Source of the DNA: Bacteroidota bacterium | GTDB lineage: Bacteria > Bacteroidota > Bacteroidia > Bacteroidales > Paludibacteraceae | Assembly: GCA_017860345.1 (NCBI GenBank) | Contig: JAFNAV010000015.1 | Location: forward strand, 1 to 64,000 | Length of the DNA stretch: 64,000 bases | Direction: 5' to 3' | Shown here: positions 4,365 through 57,427 of the stretch, in pieces | Layout: each line of letters opens with the position of its first letter | Numbering within the stretch: position 1 is the first letter of the stretch | Position numbers and translations under genes: made by a program | Notes under the pieces: model-generated | The model's input: the letters and a program-made list of their open reading frames with translations, nothing else | Told to the model about the DNA's origin: nothing | Database searches by the model: none

Positions 4365-4398
4365 AACCAACGTTTTTAAAATTTCTTTAGGAAACAAA

Positions 4399-4470
4399 CA
4401 TGAGCATGGAGGTTGGCCGATGCCTGTTTCCCGAAAGTTATCGGGATTGCGAGTTTCATGCTACAACTAA
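4399..4470 (+). promoter_or_regulatory. Leader element copy A (family of four)
   Basis: ATGAGCA ... CCCGAAAGTTATCGGG (4430-4445) ... TTGCGAGTTTCATGCTACAACTAA, 21 nt before start codon 4492. Confidence 0.55.
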
Positions 4471-4491
4471 TTAAAAAATAAAAATGAACGT

Positions 4492-6299: not shown

Positions 6300-6980
6300 A
6301 TGAAAAAACAAGTGTCAGTCACCTTTATGGTGCTGGGGATGCTGTTTACGGTATGCCTCATCGTTTCTAACATTGTGGAGCAAAAGCTGATTCATATCGG
6401 CCCTTTCGAAGCTACTGCCGGATTGCTCCTTTTTCCTGTTACTTATATAGTAAACGACCTGATAGCCGAAGTATGGGGCTATCGCAAAGTGCGGTTAATT
6501 ATCTGGAACGGTTTCCTGATGAATTTTTTGGCAGTTTTTATTTTCAGGCTGAGCATTTGGGCTCCCGGCTCCGAAAATTTTACGCATCAGGAGGCCTTTG
6601 AACTTGTACTGAGCAATACAGCCCGTATCACAGTGGCCAGTTTTATCGCATTTCTGTTTGGGTCGTTCCTGAATGCCTATGTAATGAGCAAGATGAAAAT
6701 TTTGCAACACGGACGGGGTTTTTCGGTGCGAGCCATTGTTTCCACCATTGTAGGCGAAGGGGTCGACTCCATCGTGTTTTTCAGCATTGCATTCAGCGGC
6801 ATTCTGTCTGTTCACGACCTGATAATGCTAATACTTACACAAACAGCCATGAAAACCGGCTATGAAGTTTTGGCCTTACCCATAACCAATATATTGGTAA
6901 AATGGGTAAAAAAACGGGAAGACACTGACATTTACGACGACAACGTATCGTACAACCCACTGAAAATAAAAGAACTATAA
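6300..6980 (+). CDS. yhhQ: Queuosine precursor transporter (YhhQ/DUF165 family)
   Basis: Multi-TM protein with VSNIVEQKLI, TYIVNDLIAEVWGYRKVR, EGVDSIVFFSIAF. Confidence 0.88.
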   Translation: MKKQVSVTFMVLGMLFTVCLIVSNIVEQKLIHIGPFEATAGLLLFPVTYIVNDLIAEVWGYRKVRLIIWNGFLMNFLAVFIFRLSIWAPGSENFTHQEAFELVLSNTARITVASFIAFLFGSFLNAYVMSKMKILQHGRGFSVRAIVSTIVGEGVDSIVFFSIAFSGILSVHDLIMLILTQTAMKTGYEVLALPITNILVKWVKKREDTDIYDDNVSYNPLKIKEL

Positions 6981-7013
6981 AAAAAACATATTTTTTTCAT
7001 TCAAGTCACACAT

Positions 7014-7070
7014 AAAAAAAAAGACAGGTTAACCTTTGCAAAAGCGCGCAGGCAACCTGTCTTTTTTTTA
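7014..7070. terminator. Strong (bidirectional) terminator hairpin
   Basis: AAAAAAAGACAGGTT / AACCTGTCTTTTTTT stem with internal CCTTTGC..GCGCAGG. Confidence 0.85.
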
Positions 7071-7182
7071 TATCAGATTCTTTAAAAATGTTTTATTCAT
7101 ACTCTTGAGAATGGACATCCAAAAGCCGCACTAATTTGGCTATTGACGGTTACAAATTTTTGACTTCTGGGTTGTTAGTTTA

Positions 7183-7213
7183 TCCCCTCCAAACCACCCC
7201 GAAGGGAGGCTTT
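7183..7213. repeat. C-run/G-run hairpin repeat (family also at 8657-8693 and 61110-61145)
   Basis: CCCCTCCaaaccaccccgaaGGGAGGCTTT. Confidence 0.55.
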
Positions 7214-7231
7214 CAGAGTTGCGTTGTTTTA

Positions 7232-7262
7232 GTGGAGACGCGATCTGAAGTCGCACTCCCAC
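7232..7262. repeat. GTGGAGACGCGA hairpin
   Basis: GTGGAG ac GCGA tctgaag TCGC a CTCCCAC. Confidence 0.55.
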
Positions 7263-7274
7263 ATGAAAAACAGC

Positions 7275-8645
7275 TTATTTTATCATTTTTACAAATGCTT
7301 GTTTGCCGGCAGCATCTGTGTATCTGGCAATATAAGTACCTTTGGCTAAGACTGACACATCTACTGTTTCAGCAGTGCTATTTGTGGCGATTATTTTTGC
7401 AACTACTGTTTTGCCACTTAAATCCGAGATAACGATGCTTGCTCCACTACCTGCTGAAGTGAAAATGAAGCGGGCTTCGTTAACTACAGGATTGGGTTGC
7501 AGGTGGAGAGCAAAATCACTTTCGGCAGCAGGAGCGTTGTTAGCGGTAGAAATTGTTACATTTATTTCAAACTCCACGCTTTGGGCTCCATCTGCTGAGG
7601 CAACGGTAATGATAGCTGAACCAACTGTGAGTGCGGCTATATTGCCAGTATTGTCAACCGTGACAACAGCGGTATTGTCGCTGCTCCATGTTACGTTGGT
7701 GTTAGTGGCATTGGTGGGCGATACGGTGGCAGTGAGTTTTGCCGTGCTGCCTTGCTCCAGTGAAAGCCCGAGACGGATAGCACTCACCTTTAACTCCTCT
7801 ACCGTAAGCGTAGCAGTTACAGGGGTGGCTGCATTGTAAGTGTCGTTACCGGCTTGTGAGGCGGTGATGGTGGTAGTGCCTGCACCAACGATATGCACCG
7901 TGTTGCCACTGATGGTGGCAACTGCTGTGTTGGAACTACTGTACGTTACGGCCAGACCACTGGTAGCGGTGGCTGAAAGTGAGAAGTCGGCATCGCCTAC
8001 GGTTTTTTCCAAATTGCTCAGGCCGCTTATGGTTTGATCCTGCTTGCTAACGGCTCCGACTTCCGTGACGGAAGCATTGTCGAAATAAGCGGTTATTTGA
8101 TTCGGTCTAAGCAAAATTCCTATATAAGCTGCTGTCGATGGAACTACCTCGTTGGTAGTTAACGTTAGCTGCCCCCATGTTTGCAATGTGACTGTGTTAG
8201 CTTTTATCACTGTTGTTGATCCGACAACACTTCCTGAAGTAATAGCACCACCTGCAATTTGCCCTCCATTATTCAAATTATTTCCATCCGCATCTATATA
8301 TGTGTATGCAAGGGAAACTCCACTGCGGGAGCCTGTATAAGATTGTATATTGTACCATACCGACAAGTTGTATGTTTTCCCCGGAGTTACCGGAACATAA
8401 TTTATTACAAAATCAAAACCATAAGTACTAATTACTTTCAAGCTTTTACTGCCCGCATACACAACATCGGTTGCAGCTTGGATAGTCAGGGTACTTGGAC
8501 TTAAATTTGTCCAATTATCGGGTACACCATCCATTACGGTTTCAAAACCGGGGTTGGGTACCAGATTGGTTTGCGCTTGTAGCGTTGTGAGGCTACACAA
8601 TGTCGTCAGAGTGATGACGGCGAAAAAGAGTCGAATTGTTTTCAT
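7275..8645 (-). CDS. T9SS type A sorting-domain protein with N-terminal carbohydrate-binding-like and BIG2-like Ig domains
   Basis: Signal peptide; NLVPNPGFE start; VTWSSDNTAVVTVDNTGNI BIG2 repeat; C-terminal LHLQPNPVVNEARFIF...GTYIARYTDAAGKQAFVKMIK. Confidence 0.8.
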   Translation of the reverse strand: MKTIRLFFAVITLTTLCSLTTLQAQTNLVPNPGFETVMDGVPDNWTNLSPSTLTIQAATDVVYAGSKSLKVISTYGFDFVINYVPVTPGKTYNLSVWYNIQSYTGSRSGVSLAYTYIDADGNNLNNGGQIAGGAITSGSVVGSTTVIKANTVTLQTWGQLTLTTNEVVPSTAAYIGILLRPNQITAYFDNASVTEVGAVSKQDQTISGLSNLEKTVGDADFSLSATATSGLAVTYSSSNTAVATISGNTVHIVGAGTTTITASQAGNDTYNAATPVTATLTVEELKVSAIRLGLSLEQGSTAKLTATVSPTNATNTNVTWSSDNTAVVTVDNTGNIAALTVGSAIITVASADGAQSVEFEINVTISTANNAPAAESDFALHLQPNPVVNEARFIFTSAGSGASIVISDLSGKTVVAKIIATNSTAETVDVSVLAKGTYIARYTDAAGKQAFVKMIK

Positions 8646-18526: not shown

Positions 18527-18607
18527 ATGAAACAAGCATGAACGCAAAGCTTCAACAAAGCAAGAGCTCCGATAACTATCGGTACTGTCGTGCAAGTTCC
18601 ATACGAC
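18527..18607 (+). promoter_or_regulatory. Leader element copy B
   Basis: ATGAAACAAGCA(18527-18538) ... CCGATAACTATCGG(18569-18582) ... TGCAAGTTCCAT(18591-18602), 22 nt before argC start. Confidence 0.6.
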
Positions 18608-18629
18608 CATAAAAAACAAATATTATTGT

Positions 18630-20570: not shown

Positions 20571-20588
20571 CTATAAATAATTATTTTT

Positions 20589-20664
20589 TAGTGATCGGAT
20601 GAAACTCACAAAACAAAATTTATCCCCTTAGCTATCGGGATGATTTAATTTTGCCATGTTCATT
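20589..20664 (-). promoter_or_regulatory. Leader element copy D
   Basis: Minus strand: ATGAACATGGCA ... CCCGATAGCTAAGGGG ... GTGAGTTTCATCCGATCACTAA, about 18 nt before start codon at 20570. Confidence 0.5.
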
Positions 20665-20688
20665 TCAAAATTGTTTTTGCAAAAATAA

Positions 20689-57326: not shown

Positions 57327-57407
57327 ATGAAACGAGCACCCCGATAGCTATCGGGACTGGTAAAACCCAAGGACCATGTCTATTTGCGAGTTCCATGCGA
57401 CAACTAA
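57327..57407 (+). promoter_or_regulatory. Leader element copy C
   Basis: ATGAAACGAGCA(57327-57338), perfect palindrome CCCGATAGCTATCGGG(57340-57355), TGCGAGTTCCAT(57385-57396)GCGACAACTAA, 20 nt before start codon 57428. Confidence 0.65.
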
Positions 57408-57427
57408 CAAAAATTTAATAAGAACGC

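Follow-up and report, generated by a model that had tools for sequence, protein, structure and literature searches.

Short leader sequences of Bacteroidales genes as copies of a mobile element inserted before ATGAA, probably by an IS200/IS605-like route

Integron attC sites are folded bottom strands with a two-box stem, a spacer and a variable terminal loop. Short repeats are also known from Porphyromonas gingivalis, whose MITEs are presumably those named BrickBuilt. In the accessible part of their description, the repeat is presented as a minisatellite within a MITE, and that part does not mention placement at start codons (PMC4596501). Among insertion sequences, IS608 integrates 3' of TTAC and leaves this target in the left flank. 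Each hairpin foot has on its 5' side a guide that pairs with the cleavage site, and the choice of a new target is set by the guide (PMC5934647; PMC6006769).

In this study, a leader element was analyzed in a stretch of 64,000 nucleotides of a draft genome (the window, taken at its full length) and in related genomes. A preliminary description had reported the element in four copies before unrelated genes. Pattern and covariance-model searches agree on four related copies at about the places first proposed, each in sense orientation before an open reading frame (Table 1); the total for the genome by covariance model is 61. The model found exactly four copies in the window, with E-values of 5.5e-11 to 1e-8; the 28 copies used to build it came from this genome and from relatives and include the four of the window, whose match is therefore partly by construction. 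The window contains four matches to the 3' core GAGTTYCATNCGANNACTAA vs 0.26 expected in shuffled sequence, and four to the hairpin palindrome vs 0.08 expected; all four palindromes lie inside the elements. Pfam supports three of the gene identities proposed earlier, namely the argC product (Semialdhyde_dh) after copy B, a GDSL/SGNH hydrolase after copy D and GH31 after copy C, but the supposed TPR regulator after copy A, a 554-aa ORF, had no match in the Pfam scan.

The element is about 75-120 bp long; it begins with a 5' end of its own (ATGAAAC) and stops immediately before the next ATG. It had been thought to stop 18-22 nt short of the start codon; the A/T-rich linker in this interval is conserved, is part of the element and reaches the ATG. 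The alignment first given for copy A was out of register, the true 5' arm being AGGAAACAAACATG at 4389. The 5' arm of copy D is TTGAAATGAACATG at 20668. Both copies have worn 5' ends (AGGAAAC in A, TTGAAAT in D).

Table 1. Positions of the four element copies in the window and of the parts of copy C.
Feature	Position	Strand	Remarks
Element copy A, degenerate	4389..4491	+	Covariance model 62.5 bits; abuts ATG (4492) of 554-aa ORF
Element copy B	18527..18629	+	Covariance model 64.8 bits; abuts argC ATG (18630)
Element copy D	20571..20668	-	Covariance model 67.2 bits; abuts ATG (20570, minus strand) of GDSL/SGNH hydrolase gene
Element copy C, type 1	57327..57427	+	Covariance model 75.5 bits, E 5.5e-11; abuts ATG (57428) of GH31 gene
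5' end ATGAAAC of copy C	57327..57333	+	Constant where targets differ; element-borne by empty and filled sites
Inner hairpin CCCGATAGCTATCGGG of copy C	57340..57355	+	Variable module of type 1 copies
Middle segment GTTCCAT-GC-G of copy C	57390..57399	+	Complementary to 5' end and 3' junction (pair counts)
C-GC of copy C, directly 5' of ATG	57425..57427	+	NN covaries with NN of the proposed guide
Target ATGAAA, GH31 start codon	57428..57433	+	Junction sequence

The 61 copies of the own genome (3.27 Mb, 113 contigs) fall into two main forms. Type 1 carries the CCCGATAGCTATCGGG module; type 2, with the sequence ATGAAACGAGCATGAATACGAGTATTCACCAAAGACAGTGAAAATTTGACATGCGAGTTCCATACGACCTTTAAAAAAACAATTATTTACGT followed by ATGAAA, is represented by about 18 nearly identical copies at unrelated loci. 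The inner hairpin of type 1 is missing from type 2 copies and from most relatives, where other modules are present. One copy (L057, C110:1719-1824) is a chimera with a type 1 5' part and a type 2 3' part. Contigs C39, C83, C100 and C103 break at type 2 copies, and because contigs of this draft genome break there, the true copy number is probably greater than 61. Tandem insertions, with one element before another, were also found (L018, L044, L355). A second dispersed repeat, CCTCAATCAGTCGGAAAGCCTCCCCTTTGGGGAGGTTGGAGGGGCTT, occurs directly before ATGAAA or beside the element (L044, L021 and L030/L037, on C54, C50 and C31); it could represent either a separate family or the element itself with its interior exchanged.

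Copies were detected by covariance model in 25 of 40 relatives. Matches to the exact pattern were found in Marinilabilia, Anaerophaga, Thermophagus, Carboxylicivirga, Paludibacter, Proteiniphilum, Dysgonamonadaceae and others, and the viral contigs searched held no copy. Three relatives with genomes of 2.4-2.9 Mb (G003, G006, G012) carry 19-30 copies, above many larger congeners. The apical hairpin is inverted between copies of one of these genomes (L151 and L156 vs L152 and L153 in G006), as expected from exchange within palindromes. At two Anaerophaga loci (L209, minus strand 6918-7327; L342, minus strand 1167-1576) the arms of the element are 409 bp apart with other repeats between them, which suggests that the hairpin interior tolerates nested insertions.

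The element is mobile DNA. In Anaerophaga thermohalophila DSM 12881 a 94-bp copy (L224) lies between GACTTTGGTA and ATGAAACAAAC, and at the equivalent site of strain Valhall GACTTTGGTA is joined straight to ATGAAACAAAC. The 94 bp were gained exactly before ATGAAAC; nothing was lost and nothing else was duplicated. This site is the start of no ORF that we found. In a second pair of empty and filled sites (L209) the target is ATGAATATG, yet the 5' end of the element is still ATGAAAC. Based on these two pairs, the element inserts just 5' of ATGAA, bringing its own ATGAAAC and causing no further duplication or loss. Two other origins of the terminal bases were considered and rejected. A target-site duplication is not the source of the 5' ATGAAAC, which is kept even with the target ATGAAT, and the two variable bases at the 3' junction (NN) were not derived from the target at L224: the element has GG there, and the target's own dinucleotide is TA. 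Orthologous leaders differ in the same way. At aroQ the element is present in the own genome and in one relative (G019), and the other readable relatives are empty. The gene before aroQ ends in a TGA stop that in several empty genomes overlaps the aroQ start; in G019 this stop still overlaps an ATGA, the first one of the element. At argC, among 16 readable genomes, the element is present only in the own genome (0 of 15 relatives).

Three segments of the element are complementary to one another, namely the 5' end ATGAAAC, the middle segment GTTCCATNNG and the 3' junction, CNN directly followed by ATGAAA. The NN of the junction is exactly complementary to its partner NN in 136 of 158 distinct copies, where shuffling gave a mean of 25 and a maximum of 43; the counts should not be taken for probabilities, since the copies are not phylogenetically independent. 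The combinations that predominate are AC/GT, CT/AG, CC/GG, GT/AC, CA/TG, AT/AT, GC/GC, TC/GA and TA/TA. As a control, the two bases 5' of the element's 5' end were complementary in 28 of 158 copies. Pairing was found in 88 of 99 copies at gene starts, 24 of 29 at non-starts and 22 of 28 in tandems; because it is equally good at all three, it is apparently of use to the element rather than to translation. In 28 aligned copies, covariation of the helix between middle segment and junction was 0.188 vs 0.096 after shuffling (none of 500 as high) and at most 0.077 when the segments were slid; for the helix between 5' end and middle segment it was 0.069 vs 0.044 shuffled. Covariation had been suspected in the preliminary description, and a strong signal is indeed present, between the two bases after GTTCCAT and the two before the start codon, but not at the GA/GA loop where it had been placed. 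The change from GA/GA to AA/AA in copy B had been read as a paired change; neither state is a Watson-Crick or wobble pair, so it gives no evidence of base-pair covariation or of a helix.

A near-invariant C in GTTCCAT (152 of 158 copies) puts an A.C mismatch into the outer helix when the top strand folds and a G.T wobble when the bottom strand does. In a folding-energy test, an apparent excess for the bottom strand (109 vs 42) came from a single position only and was absent for the inner hairpin, which had no strand bias (69 vs 78); the GA/GA motif favors the top strand.

Based on these observations, the leaders are probably copies of a non-autonomous mobile element of Bacteroidales that inserts 5' of ATGAA(A) by a single-strand movement like that of IS200/IS605. 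The copies are dispersed and near-identical, the empty and filled sites are precise, the 5' end is element-borne, tandems occur, and the complementary segments covary. The element would move as a folded single strand, as in IS200/IS605 and REP elements. Insertion takes place exactly 5' of ATGAA(A), or 3' of TTCAT on the bottom strand, and always in the orientation that turns the element into the leader of what starts there. On that strand the order would be the target TTTCAT, the left boundary, NNG, an A/T-rich linker, the guide CNNATGGAAC, the hairpin, and GTTTCAT with the right boundary. We propose that the middle segment is the guide, that the bottom-strand TTTCAT at ATGAAA is the left cleavage and target site (CL), and that the bottom-strand GTTTCAT of the 5' end is the right cleavage site (CR). 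At the left end the guide would pair with the target in the flank, at the right end with the terminal bases of the element itself; both ends would be cut after TTTCAT by an enzyme supplied in trans. The bottom strand is the likelier substrate on the basis of the topology and of the near-invariant C (152 of 158).

Placement relative to genes was examined in the own genome, where 48 of the 61 copies abut the ATG of an ORF (ORFs were counted if they had at least 60 codons or ran off the fetched stretch). Among the other 13, three lie before another element, eight lie at no recognized start and two are at contig ends; some of the eight may mark short or broken genes. The downstream genes are unrelated and include dnaN, purE, aroQ, argC, gcvP and genes of signal-peptide proteins. 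Names such as dnaN, purE and gcvP were read from the first 20 residues and are taken here as presumptive, the Pfam searches having covered the four genes of the window. Start-codon placement (48 of 56 classifiable copies) exceeded that of intergenic ATGAA at the loci of the own genome (76 of 219 as gene start; Fisher p 3e-12), a comparison whose weak point is its simple ORF calling and whose background comes from the window and the fetched loci. The excess is also seen in the recent type 2 copies. In named Bacteroidota genomes, 64 copies were at starts, 25 were not (25 of 89 classifiable non-tandem copies) and 21 were in tandem; the background was 198 intergenic ATGAA at starts vs 445 not, with 2552 ATGAA inside genes. 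The off-start copies too end exactly at ATGAA, and many of them come from Marinilabilia, Anaerophaga and Thermophagus. One copy counted as off-start (L259) presumably stands at the start of a gene for a 38-residue ribosomal protein L36.

It had been argued that a random repeat would not hold a constant spacing to start codons. This argument fails: the insertion target, ATGAA, is itself a very common gene start in Bacteroidota. Simple ATGAA targeting does not explain the start-codon excess, however. The precise junction and the orientation follow from target choice, but part of the excess does not; it could possibly come from selection against other sites or for the leader. Since many Bacteroidota genes begin with ATGAAA and the element brings an A/T-rich leader that reaches the ATG, insertions at start codons would leave genes intact and be kept. 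A bolder reading is that the family is specialized in start codons and is perhaps moved by an enzyme other than Y1. ATGAA would be recognized through the internal guide, and the element would carry a ready-made translation-initiation region with a helix that opens or closes the start codon; each insertion at a gene start would then swap the leader of that gene for a portable translational switch. We regard this as possible but rather unlikely.

Y1 transposases were considered as the enzyme that mobilizes the element. About 60 Y1 loci were scanned, and none had this element as its own ends. The nearest case, Anaerophaga L296, was rejected: separate tandem copies lie beside a Y1 gene that is flanked by its own GCCCC..GGGGC palindrome. 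Copy number does not rise with the number of Y1 genes (Spearman -0.33, p 0.11). No Y1 match was found in three genomes with copies (G003, G006, G051), drafts or MAGs in which the enzyme could be lost or could act in trans; the genomes without a Y1 match include two with 19-27 copies. Searches for an autonomous long version were also negative, as distant pairs of 5' arm and 3' core enclose only other repeats, and solo 3' cores in the own genome were ordinary short copies or chance matches. These results bear on the suggestion that the element is a REP/REPIN-type repeat moved by a REP-associated Y1 transposase (TnpA_REP) of these genomes. The hairpin with a guide-like foot, the many copies and the Y1 genes of most host genomes agree with it; however, the Y1 genes examined are flanked by other palindromes, three genomes have copies and no Y1 match, and the consensus lacks the GTAG/CGTC foot. 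Overall, this origin is unlikely.

A cis-regulatory RNA or a mobile translational leader had been the preliminary interpretation. The second part comes close, as the element is mobile and makes up the final ~100 nt of the 5' leader before the start codon; a cis-regulatory RNA as its primary identity is not supported. Under that interpretation, the transcript would form either the 5' hairpin, from 5' arm and middle segment, or a hairpin of the middle segment with CNNATGAAA that buries the start codon, a ligand or protein would shift the balance between them, and mobility would only spread a useful control device. The 5' and junction helices are mutually exclusive, start codons are over-represented among the sites, and in mRNA folding the predicted probability that the AUG is unpaired averaged 0.10 with the natural NN vs 0.51 with a mismatched one. 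The loop sequence is partly conserved, but its modules are exchanged or inverted between copies, or CCCGATAGCTATCGGG takes their place. Moreover, the NN pairing is kept equally where no gene starts, the leaders are not conserved at orthologous argC and aroQ, and the genes downstream have nothing in common. A search of Rfam gave no family at the gathering cut-off and only unrelated matches below it. A cis-regulatory RNA is thus quite improbable as the nature of the element. A regulatory side effect on the host is possible, given the predicted folds, and is not needed to explain the sequence.

An attC-like site recombined through its folded bottom strand by a tyrosine recombinase (integron integrase or Xer) is very improbable, since the two-part stem (R-like and L-like boxes), the GA/GA spacer before a variable terminal hairpin and the same-site junctions stand against an R box of GTTYCAT instead of GTTRRRY, an integron integrase over the cut-off that is absent from the own genome and present in only 1 of 24 genomes, and arrays that, where seen, hold no cassette genes.

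The element offers a clear case of mobile DNA that in effect targets start codons and replaces the displaced leader with its own sequence. In the own genome, dnaN, purE, gcvP, aroQ and argC appear to be translated from a leader supplied by a parasite. Whether a guide directs the choice of target can be tested naturally on the covarying dinucleotide at the junction, and the missing enzyme gives a well-defined object to search for. Annotators should not read leaders of this kind as a riboswitch or a regulon.

Compared with known systems, the element resembles attC in its two-box stem, spacer and variable terminal loop on a folded bottom strand; it differs in its core box, and no integron integrase over the cut-off was found in the own genome and no cassettes in the arrays seen. 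Like the P. gingivalis MITEs, as far as the accessible part of their description goes (PMC4596501), it is a short non-autonomous repeat of Bacteroidales, the two being set side by side by description and not by sequence. With REP/REPIN repeats it shares a short, palindromic, intergenic, multicopy and non-autonomous form; unlike them, it is not found beside Y1 genes and has a fixed orientation and a fixed junction at gene starts. Differences from IS200/IS605 are also clear. The element lacks tnpA and tnpB, and a single hairpin seems to be used for both ends. The pairing extends over as many as 10 bp, two covarying bases within the element included. The target, TTCAT, is complementary to a start codon, and there is a strong start-codon bias. 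The link to a Y1 HUH transposase was tested: the element encodes none, no Y1 gene among the loci scanned had its ends, and no autonomous version was found; for this reason it is not filed as a member of IS200/IS605. It nevertheless works like a non-autonomous element of the IS200/IS605 type, one for which no Rfam family and, in the open-access literature, no description was found. As in IS608, ISDra2 and the non-autonomous PATE of Haloquadratum, insertion is 3' of a short target that is kept in the flank; no target duplication stands beside the fixed target in the two empty and filled pairs, and a hairpin carries at its 5' foot, on what is probably the bottom strand, a guide that pairs with both the target and the end of the element.
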